Below are positions 9,323 through 30,419 of a DNA stretch of 32,305 nucleotides, one piece after another. Location: assembly GCA_023663945.1 (NCBI GenBank), contig JAMPGL010000042.1, forward strand, positions 1-32,305. Direction: 5' to 3'. The position numbers were made by a program, and so were the translations under genes. The DNA comes from Lachnospiraceae bacterium. GTDB taxonomy: Bacteria > Bacillota > Clostridia > Lachnospirales > Lachnospiraceae. Below the pieces are notes generated by a model. It was not told the DNA's origin and searched no databases. It saw only the letters and a list, made by a program, of their open reading frames with translations. How positions within the stretch are numbered: position 1 is the stretch's first letter; each line of letters starts with the position of its first letter.

Positions 9323-9452
9323 TTATTCCCGCGAGCAACGAGTCAAAGTCATGCTTGCATGACCTTGACGACTGCCGCGAGGGTCTAATACCCCGCAGCT
9401 TGCTGCGTTACAAGTTTGATGCCCCGTCAGCTTGCTACGGGGTATTTGACTC
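9323..9452 (+). repeat. Structured intergenic repeat, copy A
   Basis: First of three copies of a dispersed element beginning TTATTCCCGCGAGCAA. Hairpin GTCATGC-TT-GCATGAC (9348-9354 with 9357-9363) is flanked by GTCAA/TTGAC. A conserved block GACTGCCGCGAGGGTC follows, then a terminal GC-rich hairpin. GAGTCAAA (9340-9347) can alternatively pair with TTTGACTC (9445-9452). Copy A has 31 extra bases relative to copy C, holding a second hairpin CGCAGC-TT-GCTGCG, which looks like a duplicated terminal module. It fills most of the 403 bp without genes between the feo operon and the LytTR gene. A TATAAT-like stretch near 9576 may serve the LytTR gene; nothing else was recognised in this gap. Confidence 0.85.
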
Positions 9453-9626
9453 CGTAGGCATAAAGAGCGCATGGCTTGTGGTCATGCGCTTTTGGCATAG
9501 AAGGATTTTTGGTCATTTTGTGCCGTGATTAGTCGTTTGGTGCAATCTTCCCAAATTTTATTTAAAACCGAACCGATATAATTCATATACTATGTGGCAG
9601 AAACGGAGGCGGAATGACAGGGGCGT

Positions 9627-9995
9627 ATGAATAGTGGGTTAAGGGCTGCAAGATGTGATGACGGTGAAGGGGACAGAATCATTCAATTTTCTTTTGTGGA
9701 AGGAAAAAAGAGCATCAAGGTGGACGAGATTGTTTATATTGAAACATCTCGTCACAAAAATATCTTTTATGTGGGAGAACAGACTTACAGCATCTATAAA
9801 AAGTTAGACGAGATTGAGCAGGAGCTGAAAGGGCTGGATTTTCTGCGGATTCACCAAAGCTTTCTTGTTAATATGCATTATATCGAAAAGATCAGCAGTT
9901 ATGTACTCCGGCTTAAGACCGGAAGGGAGCTTTCGGTTCCCAAGGCGCGTTATCCGGAGGTAAAGAGACAATTTATGATGTTTAAAGGAGAATAA
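9627..9995 (+). CDS. LytTR-type DNA-binding regulator without receiver domain
   Basis: A 122-residue protein that is almost entirely one LytTR DNA-binding domain: about 20-115, with the signature KVDEIVYIETSRHKNIFYV, LDFLRIHQSFLVNMHYIEKI and ELSVPKARYPEVKRQF. LytTR domains usually sit behind a response-regulator receiver or a membrane sensor; here there is neither. An in-frame stop at 9615 rules out a simple N-terminal extension, and no receiver remnant was seen upstream, so this is likely a stand-alone regulator. The ribosome site is poor: GGAGGC is 17 bases upstream. It ends 4 bp before the next small gene and probably forms a two-gene unit with it. Confidence 0.87.
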   Translation: MNSGLRAARCDDGEGDRIIQFSFVEGKKSIKVDEIVYIETSRHKNIFYVGEQTYSIYKKLDEIEQELKGLDFLRIHQSFLVNMHYIEKISSYVLRLKTGRELSVPKARYPEVKRQFMMFKGE

Positions 9996-9999
9996 GATT

Positions 10000-10314
10000 A
10001 TGGCAGTGCAGGGAGTAAATCAAAACACCTCTTTTGGGGAAAGAACCAGCCAGGGCAAGTCCCAACAAGCGGCAGGCGGATTTGGAGAAATCATGGAATT
10101 GATTCAAAACCGGAAAAGTGAAATCTTGGAAAAGGTCAAAAAGGGAGAGACCGAGCCTGTGATTCAGATTGGCGCACAGGCGTATACGGAGAAGCAGTGG
10201 GAAAAGATGCTGGAGAGCCTGGATGATACCGAAAAGGACATTAAGGATATGATTCAGGAGGCAATCGAAATGTATAAGAAGAAACGGGAGCAGGAGGATA
10301 AGCAGCAGGCGTAA
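10000..10314 (+). CDS. Small charged hypothetical protein
   Basis: A 104-residue protein I do not recognise. Residues 1-30 are polar and Gly/Gln/Ser-rich (probably disordered). Residues 30-50 form a helix (FGEIMELIQNRKSEILEKVKKG). The segment EPVIQIGAQAYTEKQWEKMLESLDDTEKDIKDMI follows, then a Lys/Glu-rich tail. There is no signal peptide or membrane segment. It starts 4 bp after the LytTR gene, with a GGAG site within that gene's end (AAAGGAGAATAAG), so the two are translationally close. Its composition and size resemble the small unknown gene at 13626, but no convincing alignment was made. It may be a partner or target of the LytTR regulator (inference). Confidence 0.7.
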   Translation: MAVQGVNQNTSFGERTSQGKSQQAAGGFGEIMELIQNRKSEILEKVKKGETEPVIQIGAQAYTEKQWEKMLESLDDTEKDIKDMIQEAIEMYKKKREQEDKQQA

Positions 10315-10357
10315 ACGCGCCTAAAAATTTTTACTTAAAATTTTCATTTCATAAACG

Positions 10358-10386
10358 TTGACTTCATTGCGTTAAAGCAGTATAAT
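10358..10386 (+). promoter_or_regulatory. Promoter of the ABC transporter operon
   Basis: TTGACT (10358-10363) and a perfect TATAAT (10381-10386) are separated by 17 bases, about 40 bases ahead of the lipoprotein start. It lies in the short gap after the small gene that ends at 10314. No operator-like palindrome or leader structure was recognised. Confidence 0.85.
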
Positions 10387-10427
10387 CAAAAACGGTGAAA
10401 ACAAACTGTTTAGAGGAGGAAAATGAA

Positions 10428-11513
10428 ATGAAAAAGTTTTTGGCATTATTGGCAGCGGCGGCATTGACAGTCAGCCTTGCGGCATGCGGAGGCGCGTCTG
10501 CGGAAGAGAGCAGTGCGGCGGACAATGCAGCGGAAAGTGATACTGCTGAGCAGGAAGCGGACAATGCAGCGGAAAGCGATACTGCTGAGCAGGAAGCGGC
10601 TCCGGCGCAGTCGGAGGAATCAGACGGCGCTTCTTACACAGTAGGAATCTGCCAGCTGGTTCAGCATGACGCACTGGACGCGGCAACACAAGGGTTCATG
10701 GATGCATTAAAAGAAGAATTTGGTGATCAGATTACCTTCGATGTGCAGAATGCACAGGGCGACTCCAACACCTGTTCCACCATTATCAATGGTTTTGTTT
10801 CAGAGAAAGTGGATCTGATTTTGGCAAACGCAACACCGGCACTTCAGGCAGCAGCTGCAGGAACCAATGAGATTCCGATTCTTGGAACTTCCGTTACGGA
10901 GTACGGCGTAGCTCTTGATATTGATAATTTCTCCGGCACGGTAGGTGGAAACATCTCCGGTACATCAGACCTTGCGCCCCTTGACGGGCAGGCGGATATG
11001 TTAGAGGAGCTGTTCCCGGATGCAAAGAAGGTAGGGCTTTTGTATTGTTCCGCAGAGCCTAATTCCCAGTATCAGGTTGATACGGTTAAGGAATTTTTGG
11101 AGGCAAAGGGATATGAGTGCGAATATTATGCATTCTCTGATTCCAACGACCTTTCTGCAATTGCAACCACAGCGGCAAATGAAGCGGACGTAATTTATAC
11201 GCCCACTGACAATACCGTGGCAAACAATACAGAGATCGTTGCTAATATTTGTATCCCTGCAAACGTACCGGTTATCGCAGGTGAGGAGGGTATCTGTAGA
11301 GGCTGCGGCGTGGCAACGCTTTCCATCAGCTATTATGATTTGGGCGTAGGCACCGGCAGGATGGCGGCTAAGATTCTTAAGGGCGAGGCGGATATTTCTA
11401 CCATGCCTATCGAGTATGCGCCGAACTTTACCAAGAAGTACAGTGTTGAAAACTGCGAAGCTTTAGGAGTTACCATTCCGGATGATTACGAAGCAATCGC
11501 GGCAGCAGAATAA
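10428..11513 (+). CDS. ABC transporter substrate-binding lipoprotein (ABC_sub_bind family)
   Basis: A 361-residue lipoprotein. Signal peptide MKKFLALLAAAALTVSLAAC with lipobox Cys20; then a Ser/Ala/Glu-rich linker with a 13-residue sequence repeated twice (residues 31-56). The type-I periplasmic-binding fold follows from about residue 68 (YTVGICQLVQHDALDAATQGF). This opening, the VGLLYCSAEPNSQYQV segment and the partner genes fit the ABC_sub_bind family, which includes the tryptophan-binding TrpX of streptococci. The substrate here is undetermined. The start at 10428 has a GAGGAGG site; 11 more upstream in-frame codons lack signal-peptide character. It heads an operon with a permease and an ATPase, separated from them by a hairpin at 11542 that could lower downstream expression. 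Confidence 0.93.
   Translation: MKKFLALLAAAALTVSLAACGGASAEESSAADNAAESDTAEQEADNAAESDTAEQEAAPAQSEESDGASYTVGICQLVQHDALDAATQGFMDALKEEFGDQITFDVQNAQGDSNTCSTIINGFVSEKVDLILANATPALQAAAAGTNEIPILGTSVTEYGVALDIDNFSGTVGGNISGTSDLAPLDGQADMLEELFPDAKKVGLLYCSAEPNSQYQVDTVKEFLEAKGYECEYYAFSDSNDLSAIATTAANEADVIYTPTDNTVANNTEIVANICIPANVPVIAGEEGICRGCGVATLSISYYDLGVGTGRMAAKILKGEADISTMPIEYAPNFTKKYSVENCEALGVTIPDDYEAIAAAE
10518..10595 (+). repeat. In-frame 39-bp tandem duplication in the lipoprotein linker
   Basis: Two 39-base units (10518-10556 and 10557-10595) differ by a single base (agt/agc) and encode ADNAAESDTAEQE twice. Because the unit is 13 codons it keeps the frame. It lies in the flexible linker between lipid anchor and binding domain, where copy number could vary by slippage without damaging the protein. 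Confidence 0.9.
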
Positions 11514-11541
11514 ATAAGGACAACAAACAGGAAATGGAAAC

Positions 11542-11573
11542 GGCAGTGGGAGGCGGACTCTCACTGCCTTTCT
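11542..11573 (+). terminator. Hairpin between binding-protein and permease genes (leaky terminator)
   Basis: GGCAGTG (11542-11548) pairs with CACTGCC (11562-11568), extended by GAG/CTC inside, followed by TTTCTG. The T-run is short, so partial termination or protection of the upstream mRNA end is more likely than full termination. That would give more binding protein than permease, a common arrangement in ABC operons. Confidence 0.6.
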
Positions 11574-11605
11574 GAAAACACACCCCTTTTCAATGGAGGA
11601 GCTCA

Positions 11606-12535
11606 ATGAATGTTTTAAATCTGCTTAGCGCAATGCCGGGTGCGCTTGCTCAGGGACTAATATGGGGAATCACGGCAATCGGCATTTATATTACTTTTCG
11701 GATTTTGGATTTTGCAGATCTGACGGTGGATGGTTCATTATGTACGGGCGGAGCGGTATGTATTATGATGATGCTTTCCGGACATAATGTTTTTATTTCT
11801 ATGCTTGCGGCAACCTTTGCAGGGATGCTCACCGGGCTTGCCACCGGAATTTTTCATACTTTTATGGGGATACCGCCGATTCTTTCCGGTATTCTTACGC
11901 AGCTGGCGCTGTATTCCGTAAATCTGGAGATTATGGGAAAGGCGAATCAGGCAATTAATGTAGACAAATACGACCTTTTGGTATCGCTTCGTTACATAAA
12001 AGGTGTTCCGATATATAAAAACACTATTTTGGTGGTGGCAGTTGCAATCATGCTGGTTGTAGCTGTTCTTTACTGGTTTTTTGGAACGGAGCTCGGCTGT
12101 GCGCTGCGGGCTACCGGATGCAATGCAGGCATGGCAAGGGCACAGGGAATCAATACCAATTTTTCAAAGGTGCTGGGGCTGATGATCTCCAATGGCCTGG
12201 TGGGACTTTCCGGCGCAATGCTTTCCCAGTATCAGGGATTTGCGGATGTGAATATGGGACGAGGCGCAATTGTTATCGGGCTTGCGGCGGTGATTATCGG
12301 CGAGGCGGTATTTGGAAGACTGTTCAATAATTTTGGTTTTAAGCTGATCGGCGTAGCATGCGGTTCCATTCTTTATTACTTTGTCCTCCAAACAGTGATT
12401 TGGATGGGCGTAAAGCCGGACCGGCTGAAGCTCTTCTCCGCGGTGGTGGTTGCAATTTTCCTTGCAATTCCTTATTGGAAGGATAAATATTTTGCAACGT
12501 CCGCTTTAAAGAAGGGAGGCAAAAATCATGCTTGA
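11606..12535 (+). CDS. ABC transporter permease (BPD_transp_2 type)
   Basis: A 309-residue polytopic membrane protein with about eight to nine hydrophobic segments, beginning with GALAQGLIWGITAIGIYITFRILDF, which is typical of the branched-chain amino-acid/ribose-type permease family. The cytoplasmic coupling region is recognisable as LGCALRATGCNAGMARAQGI (about 164-183). A GGAGG site lies before the ATG. Its last 8 bases overlap the start of the ATPase gene, which implies translational coupling. It serves as the channel for the upstream binding protein, cargo unknown. Confidence 0.93.
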   Translation: MNVLNLLSAMPGALAQGLIWGITAIGIYITFRILDFADLTVDGSLCTGGAVCIMMMLSGHNVFISMLAATFAGMLTGLATGIFHTFMGIPPILSGILTQLALYSVNLEIMGKANQAINVDKYDLLVSLRYIKGVPIYKNTILVVAVAIMLVVAVLYWFFGTELGCALRATGCNAGMARAQGINTNFSKVLGLMISNGLVGLSGAMLSQYQGFADVNMGRGAIVIGLAAVIIGEAVFGRLFNNFGFKLIGVACGSILYYFVLQTVIWMGVKPDRLKLFSAVVVAIFLAIPYWKDKYFATSALKKGGKNHA

Positions 12536-13322
12536 GATTAGAAATGTGACAAAAGTGTTTAATCCCGGAACAGTCAATGAAAAGCTTGCTCTTGACAATT
12601 TTTCCATGACCCTCGAAGACGGGGAGTTTGTGACGGTAATCGGCGGAAACGGAGCGGGCAAGTCAACCATGATGAACGCCATTGCGGGCGTGTGGCAGGT
12701 GGATTCCGGTCAGATATTGATTGACGGCGAGGATGTGACGAAGCTTTCTGAACACAAGCGTGCGAAATACTTGGGACGTGTGTTTCAGGATCCTATGATG
12801 GGAACGGCGGCAACCATGGGAATCGAAGAAAACCTTGCCCTTGCAAAACGCCGGGGACACGGGCGGACAATCCGCGCCGGAATTACCAAAAAGGAACGTG
12901 AGGAATACCGGGAGAAGCTGGCAATTCTGGGACTTGGACTGGAAGAGCGGCTTACCACCAAGGTGGGTCTCCTCTCGGGAGGACAAAGACAGGCGCTCAC
13001 CCTGCTGATGGCTGCCCTGCAAAAGCCCAAGCTGCTTCTTTTGGATGAGCATACTGCAGCGCTTGACCCCAAAACCGCGGCGAAGGTGTTGGAAACCACG
13101 GAATACATTGTAAACAGGGATCATCTGACCACCCTTATGATCACTCATAACATGAAGGATGCAATCGCTCACGGCAACCGTCTGATCATGATGATGGACG
13201 GCAGGATTGTTTTGGATATCCGAGGAGAAGAAAAGAAAAAGCTTACCGTGGAAGAACTGCTCCACAAGTTTGGAGAAGCAAGCGGGGAGGAATTTGTTAG
13301 TGATAAAGCAATCCTTGGGTAA
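12528..13322 (+). CDS. ABC transporter ATP-binding protein
   Basis: A 264-residue ATPase energising the transporter. Walker A GGNGAGKST at about 39-47, Q-loop near FQDPMMGT, signature LSGGQRQALTLLMA at about 148-161, Walker B LLLLDEHTAALDP at about 168-180 (Glu followed by His where many families have Pro or Ala), H-loop MITHNM at about 203-208. All catalytic motifs are intact. It overlaps the permease gene by 8 bases. After the stop there is no clear terminator before repeat copy B at 13350. Confidence 0.95.
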   Translation: MLEIRNVTKVFNPGTVNEKLALDNFSMTLEDGEFVTVIGGNGAGKSTMMNAIAGVWQVDSGQILIDGEDVTKLSEHKRAKYLGRVFQDPMMGTAATMGIEENLALAKRRGHGRTIRAGITKKEREEYREKLAILGLGLEERLTTKVGLLSGGQRQALTLLMAALQKPKLLLLDEHTAALDPKTAAKVLETTEYIVNRDHLTTLMITHNMKDAIAHGNRLIMMMDGRIVLDIRGEEKKKLTVEELLHKFGEASGEEFVSDKAILG

Positions 13323-13349
13323 TATACAGTAAATGGTATAACAGATTGC

Positions 13350-13463
13350 TTATTCCCGCGAGCAATGAGTCAAGTGGCTGCTTGCAGACATTTGACGACT
13401 GCCGCGAGGGTCAATACCCCGCATCGAAGATGTGCTATGCTCTGTGGCGGGGTTATTGACTTC
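13350..13463 (+). repeat. Structured intergenic repeat, copy B (diverged)
   Basis: Second copy of the element seen at 9323 and 30320. The conserved start TTATTCCCGCGAGCAA and block GACGACTGCCGCGAGGGTC are kept. The first hairpin is changed to GTGGCTGC-TT-GCAGACAT with mostly preserved pairing. The terminal stem is ACCCCGC/GCGGGGT (13416-13422 with 13447-13453) instead of ACCCCGT/ACGGGGT, a compensatory base-pair change. Its loop is replaced by a longer one containing ATC-GAA-GAT. GAGTCAA (13367-13373) can pair with TTGACT (13456-13461). It occupies the 303 bp without a gene after the ABC operon; nothing else was recognised there except the ribosome site of the next gene. Confidence 0.82.
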
Positions 13464-13625
13464 ATGACGGATAATGGACGTTTTGTGCCATTTCTCTTAA
13501 AAAGATAAGCGGACAGACCGATACAGATATGGGAGTAAAAATAGATGTATGGGTGCCTGTCCGCTGTTTTTATGAGAGTCAATGGCAGGACGGTGCCGGC
13601 AATTTTGAGTACAGGAGGAAGCAGT

Positions 13626-13937
13626 ATGAAAGTAGAAATAGGAAATGTCCAAAGTTTTATGGGAGGTCAGGAGAGCAAGGCGGCGAAGCGCGCCGAAGAG
13701 GAAAAGCAGATTAAGAAGGGCATTTATCAGATGAAGGCAATGATTGCCTCCCAGACGATGGAAACCCTTATGGAAGAGAGCGATAAGGCCGCGGAACGCA
13801 AGGGCAGAGAGCCGAAGGAGACGGCGGGCACAGAGTCTAAATCTGAGAAAAATAAAAAAACCGATGTGCAGACGGAAATGGAGAAGATGATCTCCACGGC
13901 AGGTCAAAAAGCCGTGTCAAACAAACTGGTTGTATGA
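13626..13937 (+). CDS. Small hypothetical protein, helical and charged
   Basis: A 103-residue protein, unrecognised. It is nearly all predicted helix: KVEIGNVQSFMGGQESKAAKR, then IKKGIYQMKAMIASQTMETLMEES (about 34-57), a Lys/Glu-rich spacer and a final amphipathic stretch MEKMISTAGQKAVSNKLVV. There is no signal peptide or membrane helix. The ATG at 13626 has an AGGAGG site; the open frame extends 27 codons upstream without one. It is followed by a strong terminator, so it is a single-gene transcript or the end of one. Real coding is likely from the ribosome site and terminator; function unknown. Confidence 0.65.
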   Translation: MKVEIGNVQSFMGGQESKAAKRAEEEKQIKKGIYQMKAMIASQTMETLMEESDKAAERKGREPKETAGTESKSEKNKKTDVQTEMEKMISTAGQKAVSNKLVV

Positions 13938-13960
13938 AGTAGTATTATTATAGATGGGAG

Positions 13961-13994
13961 CCCTCATGTTGCGCGTGCGCAATATGAGGGTTTC
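13961..13994 (+). terminator. Strong hairpin terminator
   Basis: CCCTCAT (13961-13967) pairs with ATGAGGG (13984-13990), and inside it TTGCGC pairs with GCGCAA around a GT loop, giving a stem of about 13 bp. TTTCTT follows. It closes the small gene ending at 13937 and separates it from the polyphosphate operon. Confidence 0.85.
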
Positions 13995-14121
13995 TTAGTA
14001 TCTGAAAATCTTTGATGTACAAAAAGGAGGAACACACAAAATTCACAAATTTTCCATTGGTTGGACAAATTTTAAAAGTAAACTAATGCCAGTTCTTAAA
14101 ATGCCAAAAGGGGGGAAACAG

Positions 14122-14796
14122 TTGGAACAATTTCGACACGAGTGGAAGCATGAGATCAATGCACTTGACGCGGTGCTGATCCGCCAGCGCATGCGAGCGG
14201 TGATGAAGCCGGATCCTCATGCAAGAGATGGAAAATATACTATCAGGAGCCTTTATTTTGATAATCTGCAGGACAAAGCACTGCGGGAAAAAATTGACGG
14301 CACGGACAGACGGGAAAAATTCCGCATCCGCTGTTATGACGGTGATTTGTCGGTTATTCATCTGGAAAAAAAGAAAAAACGAAATAATCTCACAAGCAAG
14401 GAGAGCGCGCCCCTTACAAGGGAGGAGGCATGTGCCGTCATTAGAGGAGACCTCAGTTTTATCAAGGAGAGCCCTTATGAGCTGGTGAGGGAGCTGTCCT
14501 GCAAGATGCAGTTCGCCGGGCTTAAGCCTAAGACCATTGTGGATTATACCCGTGAGCCCTTTGTGTATGCGCCGGGAAATGTCCGCGTCACGCTGGACTA
14601 TAATATCAGAACGGGGCTTGACTGTGTGGATTTTTTAAATCCGGACTGCGTGACGATACCGGCGGGAGACCCGGTAATCATTTTGGAGGTAAAGTGGGAT
14701 GCCTTTCTGCCGGATGTAATCCGAGATGCATTGCAGCTCACGAACCGGCGTGCGTGCGCTTATTCCAAATATGCGGCATGCCGGATTTATGGATAA
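14122..14796 (+). CDS. VTC-domain polyphosphate polymerase
   Basis: A 224-residue VTC-domain protein of the triphosphate tunnel metalloenzyme fold, in which relatives make polyphosphate from ATP at the membrane. Visible tunnel-strand motifs: FRHEWKHEIN near the start, IRSLYFDN, REKFRIRCYDG, VIHLEKKKKR, VDYTREPFVY, VRVTLDYNIRTG and IILEVKWD, with alternating basic and acidic residues as expected for the phosphate tunnel. I chose the TTG at 14122 because AAGGGGGG lies 6 bases upstream and it gives the usual N-terminus. An ATG at 14086 adds 12 residues but has no ribosome site. It is followed by a DUF4956 membrane protein and CotH, a recurrent cassette in Lachnospiraceae. Confidence 0.9.
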   Translation: MEQFRHEWKHEINALDAVLIRQRMRAVMKPDPHARDGKYTIRSLYFDNLQDKALREKIDGTDRREKFRIRCYDGDLSVIHLEKKKKRNNLTSKESAPLTREEACAVIRGDLSFIKESPYELVRELSCKMQFAGLKPKTIVDYTREPFVYAPGNVRVTLDYNIRTGLDCVDFLNPDCVTIPAGDPVIILEVKWDAFLPDVIRDALQLTNRRACAYSKYAACRIYG

Positions 14797-14866
14797 GAGC
14801 ATAACAGGAAAGAAACGATAAGGAAAGATAAAAGAAAATAAAGCGGAAAGGGATAGGAAGAAAGAG

Positions 14867-15538
14867 ATGGCGTTTCAGGATATTTTTAAATCAGGATTTT
14901 TGGAGAATATAGGAAGTGTGAGCGCTTTTGATATGCTGATTGCGCTGGTTCTGGCATTTGGGCTGGGAATGTTTATTTTTCTGGTCTACAAGAAGACTTT
15001 TTCCGGAGTAATGTATTCTTCCAGCTTTGGAGTGACGCTGATTGCGCTTACCATGATTACAACAGTGGTGATTCTTGCGGTCACTTCCAACGTGGTGCTG
15101 TCGCTGGGAATGGTAGGCGCCCTGTCTATTGTGAGGTTCCGGACTGCTATCAAGGAGCCTTTGGATATTGCATTTTTGTTTTGGTCTATTGCCGTGGGCA
15201 TCGTGCTGGCGGCTGGAATGATTCCCCTTGCGGTAGTGGGAAGTCTGGCAATCGGAGTCGTACTATTGGTTTTCGTTAACCGGAAGCCCCACTTTAACCC
15301 ATATATTCTTGTGCTGAGCTGTGAGGGACAGGAAAGCGAACAGCGGGCGCTTGATTATTTGCAGGGAAAGATAAGAAAATGCGTGGTAAAAAGCAAAACG
15401 GCTCAAAAGGGAGCGGTGGAGCTTAATCTGGAAATCCGTATGAAGGAGGATAACACAGACTTTATCAATGAGCTTGCCGATATGGATGGGGTAAACAGCG
15501 CCGTGCTGGTCAGCTATAACGGGGAGTACATGGGGTAG
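14867..15538 (+). CDS. DUF4956 membrane protein
   Basis: A 223-residue membrane protein with a hydrophobic half: helices at about 21-42, 52-80 (GVTLIALTMITTVVILAVT) and 100-137. The conserved DUF4956 stretch GMVGALSIVRFRTAIKEPLD (about 82-101) lies between. The C-terminal soluble domain (about 143-223) has strand-helix alternation like a small ferredoxin-fold domain. DUF4956 proteins are found beside VTC polymerases and have been suggested to aid polymer export or membrane coupling; the role is unproven. It has an AGGAAG site, sits 70 bp after the VTC gene and 11 bp before cotH, and is clearly part of the operon. Confidence 0.9.
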   Translation: MAFQDIFKSGFLENIGSVSAFDMLIALVLAFGLGMFIFLVYKKTFSGVMYSSSFGVTLIALTMITTVVILAVTSNVVLSLGMVGALSIVRFRTAIKEPLDIAFLFWSIAVGIVLAAGMIPLAVVGSLAIGVVLLVFVNRKPHFNPYILVLSCEGQESEQRALDYLQGKIRKCVVKSKTAQKGAVELNLEIRMKEDNTDFINELADMDGVNSAVLVSYNGEYMG

Positions 15539-15549
15539 GAGGAAACCGT

Positions 15550-17196
15550 ATGTCAACACATAAACAGATTGACAAAATATGCTGTGGAGTGCTTGTGCTG
15601 GTTCTTCTTTTGACGGTATTCCTTGTGAATGCCTCAAAGCTGGGAGTTGTGCCCGTCACGGCGCAGACCGGATATGCATCAAGATTGTTTGATGATTCCA
15701 AGGTGCATGTCATTGACATTGTAATGGATGATTGGGACAGCTTTATCAAAAGCTGTGAGAACGAGGAGTATTCCGCCTGTGCGCTGGTGATTGACGGAGA
15801 ACCCTATAAGAATATCGGGATACGTGCAAAAGGAAACACCTCCTTAAGCTCTGTTAAAGAATACGGAAACAACCGTTACAGTTTTAAGATTGAGTTTGAC
15901 TGCTATGAGAGTGGAAATACTTATCACGGTCTGGATAAAATCAGTCTGAACAATCTGATACAGGACAACACTTATATGAAGGATTATCTGACCTACCGCA
16001 TGATGGGAGAGTTTGGAGTGTCAGCCCCGCTCTGTAGTTATGCATTTATCAGGGTAAACGGTGAGGACTGGGGACTTTATCTGGCAGTGGAAGGAGTGGA
16101 AGAAAGCTTCTTACAGCGCAATTACGGCAGTGATTACGGGAATCTTTACAAGCCGGACAGCATGGATATGGGCGGAGGACGCGGAAACGGCGGGAGATTT
16201 AATCCTGACGACATAAAGAATTTTATGGAAGAAGGGGATGAGAAACTTTCTCCGGATGAGGAACCGGAGTTTCCGGGAGAACCGGAAATGAGGGAGCCTT
16301 TTGGACAGAGAGGAGAAATGCCGGAGATGCCTTTCGATTTGGGGAGGAAGCCTGAATTTGACGATTTAGAAGAACCGTCCGGGTTTGGAGGGCGGGGAGG
16401 AATGTCTATGAGAGGCAATGATGTGGCGCTTATCTATTCGGATGATTCTTATGACAGCTATCAGAATATTTTTGATAACGCCAAAACAAAGATTACGGAT
16501 GGAGACAAAGACCGTCTGATTCATTCCCTGAAAAATCTTTCCCAAGAGGAAGAGATTGAAAATGTGGTAGACGTGGATGCGGTGCTGCGCTACTTTGTGG
16601 TTCATAATTTTGTCTGCAACTTTGACAGTTATACCGGAACTTTGATGCATAACTATTATTTGTATGAGAAAGACGGGAAGCTTTCCATGATTCCCTGGGA
16701 TTACAACCTTGCTTTTGGAGGCTTTGATGCGGGAAGCGGTGCTGGGAGCGGCGCTGGAAGCATGGTGAATTACCCCATTGATACTCCTGTATCGGGAACC
16801 GGCGTGGAAGAGCGTCCCATGCTTGCATGGATTTTTGCAGATGAAGGATACACCGAAAGCTATCATCAATATTTTGCGGAGTTTTTGAAAAAATATTTTT
16901 ACAGCGGATATTTGGAAGAAATGATTACTGAGGCACAGACGCTGATAGCTCCTTATGTGGAACAGGATCCTACCAAGTTCTGCAGTTATGAGGAATTTGA
17001 GAAGGGCATCGCGGCTTTAAAGGATTTTTGCCTGCTCAGGGCGGAAAGCGTGGAGGGGCAGCTTGCGGGAGAAATTCCGACAACTACGGAAGGGCAGAAG
17101 GAGAGTCCGGATGCCCTGATTGACGCTTCGGGAGTATCGTTATCGGATATGGGGACTATGGATAGAGGAATGGGAAGAGGGGGAAGAAAGAAGTAA
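15550..17196 (+). CDS. CotH kinase family protein, membrane-anchored
   Basis: A 548-residue protein with an N-terminal membrane helix (about 12-28), so most of the chain is probably outside the membrane. CotH proteins are atypical protein kinases (spore coat CotH phosphorylates CotB and CotG). Kinase motifs: IRAKGNTSLSS (about 91-101), YSFKIEFD (about 111-118), GLYLAVEGVEESFL (about 176-189), NFDSYTGTLMHNYYLY (Asp near 358) and IPWDYNLAFGG (Asp near 384). A disordered acidic, Gly/Met/Pro-rich insert occupies about 205-295 and may be a phosphate-accepting or surface segment. It closes the VTC-DUF4956-CotH operon (11 bp gap). The substrate is unknown; the operon suggests polyphosphate and extracellular phosphorylation are linked. 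Confidence 0.92.
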   Translation: MSTHKQIDKICCGVLVLVLLLTVFLVNASKLGVVPVTAQTGYASRLFDDSKVHVIDIVMDDWDSFIKSCENEEYSACALVIDGEPYKNIGIRAKGNTSLSSVKEYGNNRYSFKIEFDCYESGNTYHGLDKISLNNLIQDNTYMKDYLTYRMMGEFGVSAPLCSYAFIRVNGEDWGLYLAVEGVEESFLQRNYGSDYGNLYKPDSMDMGGGRGNGGRFNPDDIKNFMEEGDEKLSPDEEPEFPGEPEMREPFGQRGEMPEMPFDLGRKPEFDDLEEPSGFGGRGGMSMRGNDVALIYSDDSYDSYQNIFDNAKTKITDGDKDRLIHSLKNLSQEEEIENVVDVDAVLRYFVVHNFVCNFDSYTGTLMHNYYLYEKDGKLSMIPWDYNLAFGGFDAGSGAGSGAGSMVNYPIDTPVSGTGVEERPMLAWIFADEGYTESYHQYFAEFLKKYFYSGYLEEMITEAQTLIAPYVEQDPTKFCSYEEFEKGIAALKDFCLLRAESVEGQLAGEIPTTTEGQKESPDALIDASGVSLSDMGTMDRGMGRGGRKK

Positions 17197-17375: not shown

Positions 17376-17425
17376 GCAAACTAAGCATATTTTTACAGAA
17401 GATTATATAAAGAGGGAGAATCACT

Positions 17426-20977: not shown

Positions 20978-21901
20978 ATGATTTATACAGTTACCTTTAA
21001 TCCCTCTTTGGATTATATTGTGTCCATGGAAAGCTTTGGGCTGGGCAGGACAAACCGCACCACAGGGGAGCGCATTTTCCCGGGCGGGAAGGGAATCAAT
21101 GTGTCCATGGTTCTTAATAATCTTGGAATTGAGAATACGGCTCTGGGATTTGTGGCGGGCTTTACGGGGGAGCAGATCGAAAAAGAAACGCGCAGGATGG
21201 GGCTTGTCACGGATTTTATCCGCGTGGACGGGGGATTTTCCCGAATCAATGTGAAGCTGAAGGATTATGACGGCACGGAAATTAACGGCAGGGGACCGGA
21301 GATCACGCAGGAAGCAGTACGGGAACTGTACGGGAAACTGGACAGTCTGGCAGGCGGAGATATATTGGTTTTGGCGGGAAGCATTCCTGAGTGTCTTCCG
21401 GACTCTATTTATAGGGATATTATGACAAGGCTCCAGAATAAGGGAGTCCTATTTGTCGTTGACGCGTCAAAAGACCTGCTTGTAAATGTGCTGGAATATA
21501 AACCGTTTCTGATTAAACCGAATCATCATGAGCTGGGAGAAATTTTTAAGGTGAAGTTGAACACAAGGGAAGAAGCGGTTCCCTATGCCTGCAGGCTGAA
21601 AAAGATGGGAGCCGTGAATGTGCTGGTATCAATGGCCGGGCAGGGAGCGGTGCTGGCCGATGAAAATGAGAAAGTGCATATGCTTCCGGCACCGGAGGGA
21701 AGATTAGTCAATGCGGTAGGAGCGGGAGATTCCATGGTGGCAGGGTTTTTGGCAGGATGGATTCAGAAGCAGGATTATGCGCATGCCTTTCGGATGGGAG
21801 TCTCCGCAGGGAGCGCCAGCGCTTTTTCAGAGCTTTTGGCAACAGGAAAAGAGGTGGAGGAGGTTTATAAAAGGATAGGACAGGAGGAGAATTTGTTGTG
21901 A
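20978..21901 (+). CDS. 1-phosphofructokinase family hexose kinase (PfkB fold)
   Basis: A 307-residue ribokinase-fold sugar kinase. N-terminal TVTFNPSLDYIV and FPGGKGINVSMVLNNLG (about 34-50) are signatures of the FruK/LacC group. The C-terminal PfkB signature GAGDSMVAGFLAGW (about 247-260) contains the catalytic Asp. These proteins phosphorylate fructose 1-phosphate or tagatose 6-phosphate with ATP in the cytosol. The usual fructose PTS and regulator are not adjacent, so the exact substrate is open. The ATG at 20978 gives the standard N-terminus; AAGGAAG lies about 10 bases before it. It is followed directly by a 33-bp tandem repeat. Confidence 0.9.
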   Translation: MIYTVTFNPSLDYIVSMESFGLGRTNRTTGERIFPGGKGINVSMVLNNLGIENTALGFVAGFTGEQIEKETRRMGLVTDFIRVDGGFSRINVKLKDYDGTEINGRGPEITQEAVRELYGKLDSLAGGDILVLAGSIPECLPDSIYRDIMTRLQNKGVLFVVDASKDLLVNVLEYKPFLIKPNHHELGEIFKVKLNTREEAVPYACRLKKMGAVNVLVSMAGQGAVLADENEKVHMLPAPEGRLVNAVGAGDSMVAGFLAGWIQKQDYAHAFRMGVSAGSASAFSELLATGKEVEEVYKRIGQEENLL

Positions 21902-22050
21902 AAAACGCGGATATGTGTTAAAATGTTAAAATAAAAAATGCGAATATGTAGAAAAATATTAAAATAAAAAATGCGAATGTGTAGAAAAATATTAAAATAA
22001 AAAATGCGAATGTGTAGTAAAGACTGAGAAACAAAAATGCGAATAAATGG
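21901..22050 (+). repeat. 33-bp tandem direct repeat upstream of the AAA ATPase
   Basis: A 33-base unit starting AAAAAATGCGAATGTGTAG recurs with exact spacing: ATG positions 21938, 21971, 22004 and 22037, plus a degenerate unit with ACG at 21905. Two units (21938, 21971) encode a nine-residue peptide and stop (MRICRKILK or MRMCRKILK), a third encodes MRMCSKD and stop. The last ATG opens a frame that runs into the downstream ATPase. As 33 is a multiple of three, all share the frame of that gene. The region is very A-rich, so slippage expansion is plausible. Confidence 0.85.
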
Positions 22051-22090
22051 AAAAGCCGTTAAAAAACAATGTGAGTGCGCAGGAGGCAGT

Positions 22091-23419
22091 ATGTTTAGGC
22101 GAAAATTATATGATAAAATGCTTAAATGGAAAGAGGATTCCGAAGGGAAAACAGCTCTTTTAATAGAAGGGGCGCGCCGCGTCGGTAAGTCAACAATTGT
22201 AGAAGCATTTGCCAAGAAAGAATACGAAAGTTACATTCTGATTGATTTTGCGAAAGCATCAAAAGAAGTACGGTGCTTGTTTGATGATGTTTCGGATTTG
22301 AATTACCTTTTTTTGCAATTGCAACTACAATACAAAACTGATTTGCATGAGAGAAAATCAGTGATTATTTTTGATGAAGTCCAGCTTTGCCCCATGGCGC
22401 GTCAGGCAATTAAGCCGCTTGTTCAGGATCATAGATATGATTATATTGAGACAGGTTCCTTAATATCCATCAAAAAGAATGTGAAAGACATTTTGATTCC
22501 CAGCGAAGAGCGTAAAATAAGTATGTACCCGATGGATTATGAAGAATTTTTATGGGCGGTTGGAGATGACGTGACGTTTCCGATGCTTAAAAAATTTTAT
22601 GAAACTGGAAGAGCATTGGGGGAACAATTGAACAGGAAACAGCTAAGACAGTTTAGATTATACATGCTCGTAGGGGGAATGCCGCAGGCAGTCAATGAGT
22701 ATATTGAAACAAATAATTTTAGAAAAGTGGATGAGGTAAAAAGAGATATTTTGTCGCTCTATGAAGATGATTTTATGAAAATTGACTCTACGGGGCGGTT
22801 ATCACTTTTGTTTGATTCTATACCGGCTAAGCTTAATACCAATGCGTCACGTTATCAGGTGAGTGCGGTGCTTGGAAGCGAATCCCGGGATAAGATTTTG
22901 GAATATATTGCAGAACTGAAGGATTCAAAGACTGTTCTGGTATCCTATCATGCGAATGATCCCAATGTTGGAATGTCAAATACGAAAGACCTTTCAAGAT
23001 TTAAGCTGTTTTTAAGTGATACAGGGCTCTTTGTTTCATTAATGTTTAAAGATAGGGAATTTACGGAGAATGTGGTTTATGAAAAACTGTTAAGCGACAA
23101 GCTTAGCGCAAATTTGGGATACCTTTACGAAAATGTGACCGCACAGATACTGACGGCGAATGGGAATCAACTGTTTTACTATACAATGCCCAACGAAACC
23201 ACACGGCATAATTATGAGATTGATTTTTTGCTGTCCAGAAAAAATAAGGTTTGTCCATTAGAAATTAAATCATCAGGATATAAGACCCACAAATCATTAG
23301 ATGTCTTTACAGAAAGATTTTCGGACAGAATACTCCAAAGATATTTAATTTATACGAGGGATATGGATAAAGAACGGGATATTTTTTGTCTTCCGGTTTA
23401 TATGACCCCGTTTTTGTAA
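22091..23419 (+). CDS. AAA_14 / DUF4143 ATPase
   Basis: A 442-residue ATPase of the widespread AAA_14-DUF4143 family, function unknown. Walker A is GARRVGKST (27-35), Walker B IIFDEVQLCP (about 95-104), then a sensor-like stretch near YIETGSLISIK (about 118-128) and a winged-helix region at about 225-290. The C-terminal DUF4143 part contains a PD-(D/E)XK-type pattern: D378 in EIDFLL and E391/K393 in CPLEIKSS, so nuclease activity is possible. I chose the ATG at 22091 because AGGAGG precedes it; the frame is open 18 codons upstream, into the last unit of the 33-bp repeat. It is flanked by unrelated metabolic genes, suggesting an accessory insertion. Confidence 0.9.
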   Translation: MFRRKLYDKMLKWKEDSEGKTALLIEGARRVGKSTIVEAFAKKEYESYILIDFAKASKEVRCLFDDVSDLNYLFLQLQLQYKTDLHERKSVIIFDEVQLCPMARQAIKPLVQDHRYDYIETGSLISIKKNVKDILIPSEERKISMYPMDYEEFLWAVGDDVTFPMLKKFYETGRALGEQLNRKQLRQFRLYMLVGGMPQAVNEYIETNNFRKVDEVKRDILSLYEDDFMKIDSTGRLSLLFDSIPAKLNTNASRYQVSAVLGSESRDKILEYIAELKDSKTVLVSYHANDPNVGMSNTKDLSRFKLFLSDTGLFVSLMFKDREFTENVVYEKLLSDKLSANLGYLYENVTAQILTANGNQLFYYTMPNETTRHNYEIDFLLSRKNKVCPLEIKSSGYKTHKSLDVFTERFSDRILQRYLIYTRDMDKERDIFCLPVYMTPFL

Positions 23420-23467
23420 ATCATAGTAAAGACAAAAACCAAAGATTATGTGATAATTGACATCATT

Positions 23468-23496
23468 TTGGGTTTTTGATAAGCTATTGTTAGAAT
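23468..23496 (+). promoter_or_regulatory. Possible promoter of the beta-glucoside operon
   Basis: TTGGGT (23468-23473) and TAGAAT (23491-23496) are separated by 17 bases. A better -35, TTGACA at 23457-23462, has only TAAGCT at the right distance. Which is used cannot be told. No clear antiterminator target or catabolite-responsive site was found in the 129 bp between the ATPase and the glucosidase. Confidence 0.4.
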
Positions 23497-23545
23497 GTAC
23501 TTTAGAAAGCGTGATTACAGAAATATTAAGGAGGGATGACTTTAA

Positions 23546-24985
<1,440 letters not shown>

Positions 24986-25010
24986 CAGCACGGAATTTAC
25001 CAAAGAATAG

Positions 25011-26972
<1,962 letters not shown>

Positions 26973-26991
26973 GAGTAATTAATGAACAGAC

Positions 26992-27105
26992 GGGGCTGTC
27001 GCAATAAGCAAAGCGCATACAATATAGGGACATTTTACAGAATGCAATCAACTATATATTGTATGGCTTGGTCTTAATGCGACAGCCTCTATGCAATTTT
27101 TATAA
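26992..27105 (+). terminator. Long imperfect inverted repeat / terminator after the PTS gene
   Basis: GGCTGTCGCA (26994-27003) pairs with TGCGACAGCC (27078-27087). Inside it CATACAATATA (27016-27026) pairs with TATATTGTATG (27055-27065), leaving a short A/T-rich loop region. ATTTTTATAATTT follows after a few bases. It probably ends the beta-glucoside operon. The two nested perfect arms over 94 bases are larger than a typical terminator and could also mark a small MITE-like insertion. Confidence 0.6.
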
Positions 27106-27129
27106 TTTAAGCGGAGGGATGTCATATCC

Positions 27130-27453
27130 ATGTACAAGAATATTGAAAAGCAAGTGAGCCTTAGACTGAAGGATTTGGTTGAATATCAAAAGGGACAGGT
27201 GGTTAGTAAAACATTAGTTCAGAATGAACAGGTCAGCATGACGATTTTTTCTTTTGATAAGGGAGAGGAAATCTCCACCCATGCATCGGGAGGAGATGCA
27301 ATGGTGACGGTGTTAGAAGGTACAGGAAGATTTACCGTAGGCGGTGAAGTGTTTCTTTTGGGAGAGGGAGAGACTCTGGTTATGCCAAAAGATATCCCCC
27401 ATGCGGTGTACGGAGAGGAAGCATTTAAAATGCAGCTTACGGTTTCGTTTTAA
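27130..27453 (+). CDS. Cupin domain protein
   Basis: A 107-residue single-cupin protein, cytoplasmic. Cupin motif 1 is visible near HASGGDAMVTVLEGTGRFTVGG (about 57-78) and motif 2 near LVMPKDIPHAV (about 86-96). Of the usual metal ligands, His57 and His94 can be seen. Such small cupins have varied roles (isomerases, sensors); no specific one can be assigned. A GGAGGG site precedes the ATG by about 13 bases. It is followed after 24 bp by a HIT protein gene in the same direction and probably shares its transcript. Confidence 0.88.
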   Translation: MYKNIEKQVSLRLKDLVEYQKGQVVSKTLVQNEQVSMTIFSFDKGEEISTHASGGDAMVTVLEGTGRFTVGGEVFLLGEGETLVMPKDIPHAVYGEEAFKMQLTVSF

Positions 27454-27477
27454 TTCAAATTAAGGAGGAAGGCAGAG

Positions 27478-27897
27478 ATGAAGGATTTAAGTTGTGGGTA
27501 TTGTCAGGGCGGAGAACTGCTTGCTAAGTTTGGGATTAAAATCTGTGATCTGGATGTGAGCCAGTTAATTTTATTCAAGGAACAAAGCAAGCCGGGAAGA
27601 TGCATTGTGGCATATAAGGATCATGTCAGTGAGATTGTGGATATTAGCGAGGAGGAAAGGAACCGTTTTTTCGCGGATGTCACCAGAGCGGCTAAGGCGA
27701 TTCATAAGGCGTTTGCGCCGGATAAGCTCAATTATGGCGCTTACGGCGATACAGGATGCCATCTGCATATGCATTTGGTTCCCAAGTATAAAGGACAGGA
27801 TGAGTGGGGCGGCGTATTTCAGATGAACCCTGACAAAAAGTACTTAAGCGAAGAGGAATATGAGGAAATGATTGAGAAAATAAAGGAATGTCTGTAA
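27478..27897 (+). CDS. HIT family nucleotide hydrolase/transferase
   Basis: A 139-residue HIT-superfamily protein. The catalytic triad motif HLHMHLV is at 95-101 (His95, His97, His99). The N-terminal CGYC (6-9) is a possible zinc-binding pair. The family hydrolyses adenosine phosphoramidates or dinucleoside polyphosphates in the cytosol. AAGGAGGAAGG precedes the ATG. It ends the cupin-HIT unit, with a terminator at 27951. Length is normal. Confidence 0.92.
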   Translation: MKDLSCGYCQGGELLAKFGIKICDLDVSQLILFKEQSKPGRCIVAYKDHVSEIVDISEEERNRFFADVTRAAKAIHKAFAPDKLNYGAYGDTGCHLHMHLVPKYKGQDEWGGVFQMNPDKKYLSEEEYEEMIEKIKECL

Positions 27898-27950
27898 CCG
27901 GAATAATTAGGTAAGATGAATAGTAATTCTCTGATGGTATGTGATGGGAT

Positions 27951-27985
27951 ACCCCATGTGCTGATAGTGGTGCATGGGGTGTTTT
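27951..27985 (+). terminator. Hairpin terminator after the HIT gene
   Basis: ACCCCATG (27951-27958) pairs with CATGGGGT (27973-27980) over 8 bp, followed by GTTTT. It separates the cupin-HIT unit from the oxidoreductase at 28066. Confidence 0.8.
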
Positions 27986-28065
27986 AATAAAATGGAAAAC
28001 AGATAAAGGAAACGTGGGGAAGTGAATGCCTGCTGCAAAAAGGAAAAGAGAGGAGATATGAGTTT

Positions 28066-28647
28066 ATGAAAAAAATACTCGTCATACAGGGCGGCGGAAG
28101 ACCGAAAGGGAACACCGCACAGCTTGTGGAACATTTCATAGGGGGAGCGGAAGAAGCAGGGAACAAGGTGGAGCTGTTCTCCCTTTTAAAAAATGAAGTA
28201 AAGGGCTGTCTTGGCTGTAATGCCTGCCGTTATGGAAAACCATGCATCCAGAAAGATTCCTTTAATGAAATTGTGCCTAAGATTAAAAATGCAGACTGTA
28301 TTGTCTTTGCATCACCCTTATATTTTTGGACCATTTCATCTAAGATAAAGGCATTTATAGAACGGTTTTACTGTATCGCAGAGGAGGATGTCAATCCGCC
28401 GCTTGGAAGGTATGAAAAATATCCGGTGGGGGACTGCGCTCTGCTGATGACTTCCGCAGATAACTTCTTTTGGACGTTTGAACAGGCAGTCTCCTATTAT
28501 CAATTTACTCTGATTAATTACATAGGATTTCATGACAAAGGGATGCTTCTTGCAGGGGGATGTGGCGACACCAATGGGAAACCGCAGATTGACAGGACAG
28601 ATTATTTAAGACAGGCATATGAATTTGGAAAGAAAATCTATCCCTAA
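28066..28647 (+). CDS. Flavodoxin-like NAD(P)H-dependent oxidoreductase with Cys motif
   Basis: A 193-residue flavodoxin-fold reductase. The FMN loop is GGGRPKGNTAQLV (about 9-21). The Cys motif CLGCNACRYGKPC (about 46-58; CX2CX2CX5C) can bind an iron-sulfur cluster. ASPLYFWTISSKIKAF (about 86-101) contacts the flavin. It is related in fold to the protein at 20334 but clearly different in sequence. An AGAGGAGA site lies upstream of the ATG. It appears to be a single-gene unit; the 244 bp after it hold no ORF, only a short CTGAA/TTCAG palindrome near 28803 and A/T-rich promoter-like stretches. Confidence 0.9.
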   Translation: MKKILVIQGGGRPKGNTAQLVEHFIGGAEEAGNKVELFSLLKNEVKGCLGCNACRYGKPCIQKDSFNEIVPKIKNADCIVFASPLYFWTISSKIKAFIERFYCIAEEDVNPPLGRYEKYPVGDCALLMTSADNFFWTFEQAVSYYQFTLINYIGFHDKGMLLAGGCGDTNGKPQIDRTDYLRQAYEFGKKIYP

Positions 28648-28891
28648 AACACGGGCATTAGAGAAAAAGGATGCAACAATAGTGAAGATAGTGGAAAATG
28701 GACATGAAAATAAATTTATAATGGCTATTTAGAATGCGCTGCGCTATACTATCTTAATATACGGAAATGAAAAACAGGCTGAAGCAATTGATGTCAGAGT
28801 ATCCTGAAATACTTCAGATGTATGCTTTTACCATAATTTTGGACAGTGATTTCAGTGACTGATAGTGTAAATGTTGGAGGGATAGCGGCTT

Positions 28892-30136
28892 ATGAAATTA
28901 GATTTGACGGATATGCTTTGTGCCTTGTCATTTGCATTAGACAAGGTAGAAATAGAACTATTGGGATTGGATACCGGTCACAGTAAGCGTGTGGCAGGTC
29001 TTGCATTGTTAATGGGAAAAGAGGCAGGGTTTGCAGGAGAAGAATTGAGAGATTTTGTAGGATGTTGTATACTGCATGACAATGCTTTGACAGAGTTTAT
29101 CCATGAGGAACTGTCAAATCGTTTCGAGCCGCAGGATTTGGCCATGCAGTTTTCTGACATAACCGTATTGGCGGGGGCAGAGATGAATTGCCGCCATTGT
29201 GTGATTGGAGAGCAGAATATCCGCTTGCTGCCGTTTCGTACAGATGTAAAGGATATCATTCTTTACCATCACGAGAATGCAGATGGTTCCGGGGCATTGG
29301 GCAAAACAGACTCAGAAACCACATTGAAATCTCAGATTTTACATTTGGCAGATGTCATTGATATGACAAGCCGGCTGAATGGAATGGCAATCACAGAGTT
29401 TGAGGAGCTCCGCAGGTGGGTACGGAAGCAGTCAGGAGGTTTGTTTTCTGGTGATGCCGTGGAATTATTCCTTAGAGCTGTGAATTTTGACAGATTACTG
29501 GATATGCAGGAAGGAGATGCCCTGACCTATTTCCAAGAGGAAATTGAAACAACATTTTATGATTATTCTGACGGGGAAATTAGAAATATTGCAGGACTGT
29601 TTGCAAAAATAGTGGATTATAAATCAGCATTTACACAGGCACATTCAAGGGGAGTGGCAGAAAAAGCGGAAGTGATGGCACATTATTATGGATTTGACAG
29701 GGAAAAAGCAATCCGTTACTATTTTGCAGGGGCAATGCATGATATCGGTAAGCTGGTGATTTCTAATGACATTTTGGAAAAGCCGGGAAAGCTCAGCGAT
29801 AATGAATTTGCGGAAATGAAAAATCATGCTGCTGCCACCCATTACATACTGTGTCAGATAAAGGGGATTTCTGATATCGTGAAATGGGCTTCTAATCATC
29901 ACGAAAAACTAAATGGAACGGGCTATCCGCAGGGACTGACAGAGCAAGATTTAAGCTTTGAGGAGCGGCTGATGACCTGCATTGATATTTATCAGGCACT
30001 GACGGAAAAAAGACCGTACAAAGATGGCATGTCTCATGAACAGGCTATTTCCATTATGTCAGATATGGCAAATAATGGTGAAATTAGTCAAAAGATTGTA
30101 CAGGATATGAGTGCTGCAATGGGGACATGTAAATAA
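28892..30136 (+). CDS. Tandem HD-GYP-like protein (first domain degenerate)
   Basis: A 414-residue protein with two HD-type domains and no membrane helix or receiver. Domain 1 (about 5-185) keeps GHS (His30), LHD (His62/Asp63) and HHENADGSGALG (126-137), but lacks the Tyr-Pro of the GYP motif. Domain 2 (about 225-410) has H251, MHDIGK (His283/Asp284) and a full HHEKLNGTGYP (336-346), so it is likely the active one. HD-GYP domains hydrolyse cyclic di-GMP or related dinucleotides with two or three metal ions. The first domain may be regulatory. GGAGGG precedes the ATG. No GGDEF partner is in the window. The mobile-element remnants begin right after it. Confidence 0.9.
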   Translation: MKLDLTDMLCALSFALDKVEIELLGLDTGHSKRVAGLALLMGKEAGFAGEELRDFVGCCILHDNALTEFIHEELSNRFEPQDLAMQFSDITVLAGAEMNCRHCVIGEQNIRLLPFRTDVKDIILYHHENADGSGALGKTDSETTLKSQILHLADVIDMTSRLNGMAITEFEELRRWVRKQSGGLFSGDAVELFLRAVNFDRLLDMQEGDALTYFQEEIETTFYDYSDGEIRNIAGLFAKIVDYKSAFTQAHSRGVAEKAEVMAHYYGFDREKAIRYYFAGAMHDIGKLVISNDILEKPGKLSDNEFAEMKNHAAATHYILCQIKGISDIVKWASNHHEKLNGTGYPQGLTEQDLSFEERLMTCIDIYQALTEKRPYKDGMSHEQAISIMSDMANNGEISQKIVQDMSAAMGTCK

Positions 30137-30151
30137 ATACTATCATAGCAG

Positions 30152-30268
30152 ATGAACTATGCGGCAAGATACGAAGGCATGACACCGGCGGAGATTGTGG
30201 CAGATACGAAAGCCGGTGCGGCGGAGTTCCTTGAAATAATGAAGAAGCGCAAACTTATGAAAGTATAA
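30152..30268 (+). pseudogene. Truncated duplicate of the antitoxin-like gene at 31309
   Basis: A 38-codon open frame (MNYAARYEGMTPAEIV...) matches the last 36 or so residues of the 61-residue protein at 31309 with one or two substitutions. The homology continues past the stop into the shared terminator. The 5' half of the gene (EISERFDLDDIRKIRE part) and any ribosome site are missing. It is a decayed second copy of the antitoxin end of a toxin-antitoxin locus; no toxin precedes it. Confidence 0.85.
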
Positions 30269-30289
30269 GCACCTTTATAAGGATTGAAA

Positions 30290-30321
30290 CACACTTAAAT
30301 ACAGCTTTAGGTGTGGTTTTT
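30290..30321 (+). terminator. Terminator copy shared with the 31309 gene
   Basis: CACAC (30290-30294) pairs with GTGTG (30311-30315), with a T-run following. The same sequence, better preserved, follows the intact gene at 31513. It directly abuts the start of repeat copy C. Confidence 0.6.
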
Positions 30322-30419
30322 ATTCCCGCGAGCAACGAGTCAAAGTCATGCTTGCATGACCTTGACGACTGCCGCGAGGGTCTAATACCCCGTCAGCTTG
30401 CTACGGGGTATTTGACTCC
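30320..30419 (+). repeat. Structured intergenic repeat, copy C
   Basis: Third copy, virtually identical to copy A apart from lacking the 31-base extra module. Hairpin GTCATGC/GCATGAC lies at 30345-30351 with 30354-30360; terminal hairpin ACCCCGT/ACGGGGT at 30387-30393 with 30403-30409; GAGTCAAA (30337-30344) can pair with TTTGACTC (30411-30418). It sits exactly between a terminator and a gene fragment whose 5' part is missing, so it marks a rearrangement junction or insertion. Confidence 0.87.

Follow-up and report, generated by a model that had tools for sequence, protein, structure and literature searches.

A dispersed structured repeat of Lachnospiraceae, probably a non-autonomous single-strand transposon related to IS200/IS605

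A short structured repeat present in three copies within a 32,305-nucleotide stretch of DNA from a Lachnospiraceae bacterium (contig JAMPGL010000042.1 of assembly GCA_023663945.1; the whole stretch is called the window, and its genome the source genome) is probably a non-autonomous single-strand transposon. It is related to the IS200/IS605 insertion sequences (IS) and resembles the palindrome-associated transposable elements (PATEs) of Haloquadratum walsbyi (defined in PMC3119063; see also PMC7290912). An initial annotation had offered a choice between a mobile repeat, similar to repetitive extragenic palindromes (REPs) or miniature inverted-repeat transposable elements, and a regulatory RNA. 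Mobility is supported by the copy number, the defined ends, the pre-existing target, the absence of visible duplication and the wide distribution, and PATE-like is the more exact description; the regulatory RNA gained no positive support. The repeat is a new, widespread family of this already known PATE-like kind. A literature search by sequence strings and by topic, the latter covering titles and the starts of abstracts, found no earlier description of it.

The repeat consists of two hairpin modules between fixed ends. Direct reading placed the three copies, named A, B and C, where they had been reported and in one orientation, and the shared strings and stem variants were found as quoted. 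The stems proposed earlier stand, while the extent does not, since the real structure is larger and comprises a full hairpin I and a hairpin II (Table 1). A TTTATT-like hexamer, which is left out of the element bounds used here, immediately precedes the CCCGCG with which the element begins. Its modular order is TTTATT, then CCC GCG a GCA AYGA GYCAA, a variable stem, TTGRC GAM TGC CGC ga GGG TC, hairpin II and the terminal TTGACT. The left end reads CCCGCGAGCAAYGAG and the right end TTGACT. As the outer sequences CCCGCGAGC... and ...TATTTGACT are not inverted copies of each other, there are no terminal inverted repeats; instead, palindromes (hairpins I and II) lie near both termini on the same strand. 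Hairpin I runs from the CCC to the GGs of GAGGG and has a bulged A, a tandem G-A/A-G internal loop and a variable apical stem, and hairpin II has the form GTC(A/T)AATACCCC..GGGGTATTTGAC. With a length of about 90-125 nt (93-124 nt in the window), the element contains no gene and is too short for a transposase.

The interior of the element varies, yet its ends are retained. Among source-genome copies hairpin II is long (copy A), short (copy C) or missing, and some copies have an extra AACCAGCTAAGGCTGGTT stem. Copies such as L005, L011, L196, L202 and L220 have differing internal deletions and keep both the left end and the right TTGACT; some decayed copies (such as L222, L230 and L232) have lost the right end. 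The 76 scorable right ends from other genomes read TTTGACT (40), TTTGATT (20), GTTGACT (10) or otherwise (6). No obvious autonomous element sharing this left end was found: 25 of 115 copies, a set that includes two from the source genome, lacked a right-end motif within 110 nt, and the next 140 nt held variant, cut or decayed right ends, genes farther downstream not being searched for. Two related forms were also seen. A subfamily in other genomes (L334, L339, L341, L342) has a similar hairpin I and a different right arm (such as GATAACTTGAGAAAC...GTTTCTCATAGTT), and a lone hairpin II, AGTCAAATACCCCG...CGGGGTATTTGACT, stands without hairpin I on source-genome contig C35 (L289:1502-1540).

The family is dispersed through the source genome and through its order. 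The left-end pattern TTCCCGCGAGCAAYGAGTCAA, allowing up to three mismatches, has 84 matches in the source genome, 42 on each strand, and a reversed control has none; the possibility, raised initially, that only three copies exist is thereby removed. Reading covered 86 loci, namely 83 of the 84 pattern places and three others, and 85 of them have the left motif. The description of the copies as lying between genes is correct for the three in the window (copy A is 3' of feoB, copy B is 3' of an ABC operon) and fails genome-wide, where naive calling places 19 of the 84 copies within open frames of 100 aa or more and 65 outside such frames. A model of the repeat, R1, matches dozens of genera in the order: 54 of 392 genomes drawn from it, in 46 of 174 genera, with at most 13 candidates scored per genome. 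A scan of at least 80 named contigs gave R1 matches that, among those listed, include Blautia parvula, Hungatella effluvii, Parablautia intestinalis, Eisenbergiella porci and Lacrimispora saccharolytica. Other contigs in that scan (Bradyrhizobium, Sphingomonas) are chance pattern hits without an R1 match, and a match in the relatives' scan (G052) is a chance hit that has no left end. In a sample of 398 genomes from the phylum only two matched, the source genome and another of its family, and no spread beyond the order was found there. Carriage on plasmids or phages was considered and rejected: there was no plasmid match, and the search otherwise gave one partial phage match and one viral contig.

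The hairpins are supported by folding and by covariation. As single-stranded DNA, copies A, B and C each fold better than all 200 of their dinucleotide shuffles (z scores in Table 1). From 66 sequences collected from the source genome, its relatives and the named contigs, 61 entered alignment A2, in which 89.5% of cells pair; these sequences are related, and since they were found by exact patterns, the columns that the patterns cover look more conserved than they are. Changes on both sides of a pair occur in 152 cells, compared with 53.7 +/- 9.7 after shuffling and with 5-19 after sliding of the partner strand. The covariation that the initial annotation had asked for in a larger alignment is present for hairpin I. 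Two of the five covariation measures are not above the shuffles (double-change pairs, 8 vs 7.3; further pair types, 23 vs 24.6). RNAalifold gives the same structural outline, and the arms of hairpin II co-vary as well, for example GTCAAAAACCC/GGGTTTTTGAC. The position adjoining the tandem G-A pairs covaries without always being Watson-Crick; in 149 copies it is C-C (100), T-A (44), T-C (2), A-A (2) or C-T (1). A switch in which GAGTCAAA near the start would pair with TTTGACTC at the end was rejected. That pairing is unconserved, the left side being GAGCCA while the right end keeps TTGA in 57 of the 76 other-genome copies with a scorable right end, and the final C of TTTGACTC is outside the element.

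The element inserts 3' of a pre-existing TTTATT, and no duplication of the target was seen. The hexamer 5' of CCCGCG is TTTATT in 57 and ends in ATT in 80 of 82 scored source-genome copies, these 82 being the 85 without the extra copies L237 and L238 and with one repeated-flank copy merged. The left flank of copy C is 90% identical to an unoccupied paralogue through TTTATT, and the two diverge beyond it (window positions 30324 and 31550). Loci L023 and L200 read ...GGAGATTTATT followed uninterrupted by TCTACGTCG..., and L294, which is partial, reads ATGGAGATTTATT followed by TCTACGTCG. The same left flank is followed by CCCGCG in L008, and TTTGACT is followed by the same right flank in L029; because L008 is at a contig start and L029 has a different left flank, these are two half-junctions on different contigs and not one filled site. 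The copy in L007, which is inside a frame, is collinear with the element-free homologue L087 and shows no duplication. None of the unoccupied paralogous or homologous sites examined shows target duplication, and at no single locus is there a complete pair of filled and empty sites; it is the paralogue, the L023/L200 and the L007/L087 junctions taken together that establish insertion 3' of a pre-existing TTTATT. For the B. parvula copy in L132, no DNA match to an empty site was found in the 19 other genomes of its genus that were searched.

Insertion after Rho-independent terminators was considered as an alternative target rule and rejected. Some copies, copy C included, are located at the T-runs of terminators, but a strict test found terminators at 19 of 82 copies and at 16 of 116 control TTTATT sites (p = 0.09), and a looser energy comparison does differ (p = 0.01). 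We favour the TTTATT hexamer as the target, though there may be a mild excess at terminators. Two repeated loci were noted. Further copies of the target locus with TCTACGTCGCC... exist at no fewer than four other places in the source genome (L023:207-346, L200:1-106, L181:5095-5151 and the start of L294). In the window, paralogous segments at 30156-30288 and 31382-31514, which are 87-90% identical, flank a PIN-domain frame (30780-31334), and copy C follows the first of them.

These properties are those of PATEs and, in part, of IS608 and ISDra2. In common with PATEs, the repeat has no terminal inverted repeats, has palindromes near its ends, makes no target duplication, cannot encode a transposase, has hairpins related to an IS605-type element (for the repeat, in the 3' module only) and occurs in shortened forms (PMC3119063). 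It is bacterial, with Lachnospiraceae among the named records, whereas PATEs are haloarchaeal, and its 5' hairpin module has no counterpart in the related autonomous element. IS608 inserts 3' of a short target that is kept in the left flank, and it has guides 5' of the hairpin feet that form triplets with the hairpin 3' flank (PMC5934647). The repeat shares with IS608 and ISDra2 the fixed short target in the left flank and one-strand hairpins at both ends (PMC5934647). In contrast to them it has neither tnpA nor tnpB, and its target is TTTATT instead of TTAC (IS608) or TTGAT (ISDra2). Because no Y1 HUH transposase gene is found in the element, it is not filed as an IS.

The 3' module of the repeat is akin to the ends of an IS200-type element. 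A viral contig, L425, carries such an element with an intact TnpA frame. The long 3' module of the repeat matches it over 35 nt at the left end (91%) and over 20 nt in the right-end hairpin (100%), and the two have in common the left-end segment GAGGGTYTAATWCCCCGCAGCTTGCTGCG and the right-end hairpin CCCCG...CGGGGTA. The source genome has four Y1_Tnp stretches, of which those on contigs C66 and C77 are 71% alike over 70 residues, and the C66 tnpA locus shares its left end with L425 (89% over 617 nt). The IS200-type element differs from the repeat in having tnpA and in lacking hairpin I: about 6 nt link its target to GAGGG in both C66 and L425, and in the repeat hairpin I takes that place. The match to a known IS end, which the initial annotation had regarded as grounds for setting the repeat aside, exists for the 3' module only; it accounts for the element and gives no ground for discarding it. 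A related TnpA of 154 aa from genome G338 scores 138 bits with the IS200/IS605 equivalog model and 26 with the model for REP-associated transposases (cut-off 80). Its best PDB match is 2xm3, from ISDra2.

Single-strand chemistry, TnpA as the enzyme and a role of the hairpins in recognition make up the most likely mechanism. In the top strand, hairpin I would form on the left and hairpin II on the right, and an IS200/IS605-family Y1 (HUH) TnpA, supplied in trans, would recognise the folded strand. TnpA would cut after the left target, between TTTATT and CCCGCG, and after the right end TTGACT. The element would then be excised as single-stranded DNA and inserted 3' of another TTTATT with no target duplication. 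The 3' module may descend from an IS200-type element that lost tnpA, hairpin I being an added 5' module. The distribution of close TnpA homologues (E <= 1e-20) is consistent with this. They occur in two of the 392 order genomes, both belonging to the group of 11 that have 12 or more repeat matches, and in four of 60 relatives (G000, G022, G024, G032), all four of which carry the repeat. In the search for an autonomous element, tblastn with the C77 TnpA against 146 loci, most with the repeat, gave one hit, L132, where the repeat interrupts tnpA. At that site in B. parvula (L132:7598-7666) the interrupted IS605-type tnpA is apparently decayed, and a frame read as tnpB-like lies downstream.

A number of results weigh against TnpA as the mobilising enzyme. 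Nine of the 11 high-copy genomes lack a close TnpA, and no Y1_Tnp match was found in the repeat-bearing genomes G002 and G030 or in the high-copy genomes G373 and G329. As these four repeat-bearing genomes show no Y1 transposase, we can only infer the enzyme. Among 37 Y1 loci, several of them overlapping, none has hairpin I inside a tnpA element; only L064 matched the model, and there the repeat is beside a tnpA fragment. In 30 loci searched by motif, the only left ends were those in L240 and L266, which are separate copies near C77 and C66. The targets of the C66 and L425 elements seem to be TTTAAT (the likely target of the shared element) or TTGAAT and not TTTATT, with boundaries deduced from the flanks. 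Finally, the C66 right end shares 98% identity with the repeat over 64 nt, but when set against L425 it resembles an IS/repeat recombinant, and the match would show contact and not descent.

The strand distribution and the target choice add further reservations. IS608 and ISDra2 are reported to prefer the lagging strand (PMC6006769). For the repeat, 52 of 84 copies are on the G-rich strand (p = 0.04), which does not establish a strand preference. This share exceeds that of intergenic TTTATT sites (191/450, p = 0.0012) and is not above that of all TTTATT sites (924/1667, p = 0.26). Intergenic copies alone give 37 of 65 (p = 0.033 vs intergenic sites), and mismatch-free copies give 27 of 45 (binomial p = 0.23; p = 0.027 vs intergenic sites). 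A candidate guide, AAYGAG, is just 5' of the inner stem, and a base 3' of that stem covaries with it, at the place where IS608 has base triplets between guide and 3' flank (PMC5934647). On paper AAYGAG can pair with TTTATT, and a second candidate, GGTCAA, with TTGACT; with this putative assignment, the covarying pair would link a guide-like base to the 3' flank. The target does not follow the covarying Y: in other genomes, TTTATT precedes 44 of the 59 C-type copies and 32 of the 44 T-type copies.

Transposition by an enzyme other than a Y1 transposase, such as an unrecognised recombinase, would account for several of these results, and the IS200 likeness would then be due to recombination at similar CCCCG hairpins. 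The four genomes without a Y1_Tnp match, the lack of any tnpA that carries the 5' module, the chimeric C66 right end and the unclear strand preference are in its favour. We consider it unlikely: an asymmetric set of hairpins confined to one strand, with neither inverted repeats nor target duplication and with integration 3' of a constant T-rich hexamer, is the pattern of the IS200/IS605 family, the L425 left-end match is independent of the C66 chimera, and transposase genes can disappear or be absent from draft assemblies. A structured regulatory RNA that was spread by duplication, with mobility secondary, would fit the covariation, the conserved unpaired bases and the location of copies A and B 3' of feoB and of the ABC operon. 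It is highly improbable, as the same covariation would be expected of a DNA hairpin that a transposase reads, 42 copies are on each contig strand, 19 of 84 are within frames, and hairpin II is absent or replaced in various copies that keep their ends. Nor is there an Rfam match, a possibility that the initial annotation had raised; the window has none at the gathering cut-off, and a permissive search in the neighbourhood of copy A produced nothing beyond a sub-threshold Atu_C9 hit at 9461-9493, which is not part of the element. A classical system of REPs or bacterial interspersed mosaic elements with a dedicated REP-associated tyrosine transposase (PMC3116915, PMC3733652) shares with the repeat high copy number, mostly intergenic location and dispersed hairpins tied to Y1 transposases, but is scarcely credible, since the related TnpA belongs by its scores to a different subfamily and the GTAG or CGTC tag (PMC3733652) is absent from the ends as read.

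A PATE-like transposon remains the probable identity of the repeat, and more tentatively its hairpin I might be a recognition module that was gained by the element. In replacing the linker between target and GAGGG it might have retargeted the element from TTTAAT/TTGAAT to TTTATT, and the non-Watson-Crick covarying position (T-A or C-C) might be a third-strand contact like the IS608 triplets. With hairpin I the element might have spread to dozens of genera, in some genomes perhaps by means of an enzyme not recognisable as a Y1 transposase. If the transposon reading is true, a mobile repeat widespread in Lachnospiraceae adds to the sources of strain differences. The repeat also breaks assemblies, and contigs C13, C16, C32 and C71 of the source genome begin or finish within a copy. 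Natural variants of the repeat, among them those at the covarying pair that is at times not Watson-Crick, could serve to test by what means single-strand transposases recognise folded ends and select their targets.

Table 1. Repeat copies, their parts and associated sites in the window
Feature	Position	Strand	Evidence or remark
Target hexamer TTTATT, copy A	9322..9327	+	Flank, outside element; exact TTTATT in 57/82 scored source-genome copies
Copy A, long form, CCCGCG...TTTGACT, 124 nt	9328..9451	+	Fold z -5.7
Copy A hairpin I (5' module)	9328..9382	+	Fold; covariation
Copy A hairpin II, long form, inner CCCCGCAGCTTGCTGCG...TTTGATG arm (IS200-related 3' module)	9383..9450	+	Fold; IS match
Target hexamer CTTATT, copy B	13349..13354	+	CTTATT in 5/82 copies
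Copy B, variant apical stems	13355..13461	+	Hairpin I 13355-13409, hairpin II 13410-13460; fold z -4.5
Target hexamer TTTATT, copy C	30319..30324	+	Same hexamer in unoccupied paralogue at 31545-31550
Copy C, short hairpin II form, 93 nt	30325..30417	+	Hairpin I 30325-30379, hairpin II 30380-30416; fold z -7.0
Paralogue of copy C left flank, without element (unoccupied site, left side only)	31382..31550	+	90% identity, 170 columns, ends at TTTATT

Other features of the window were noted in passing. A 39-nt in-frame tandem duplication is found within the gene of an ABC substrate-binding protein (10518-10595). A 33-nt AT-rich unit (AAAAATGCGAATATGTAG...) is repeated in tandem at the start of the frame of an AAA/DUF4143 gene (21901-22065). 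A short frame at the end of the window (31984-32256) matches phage integrase.

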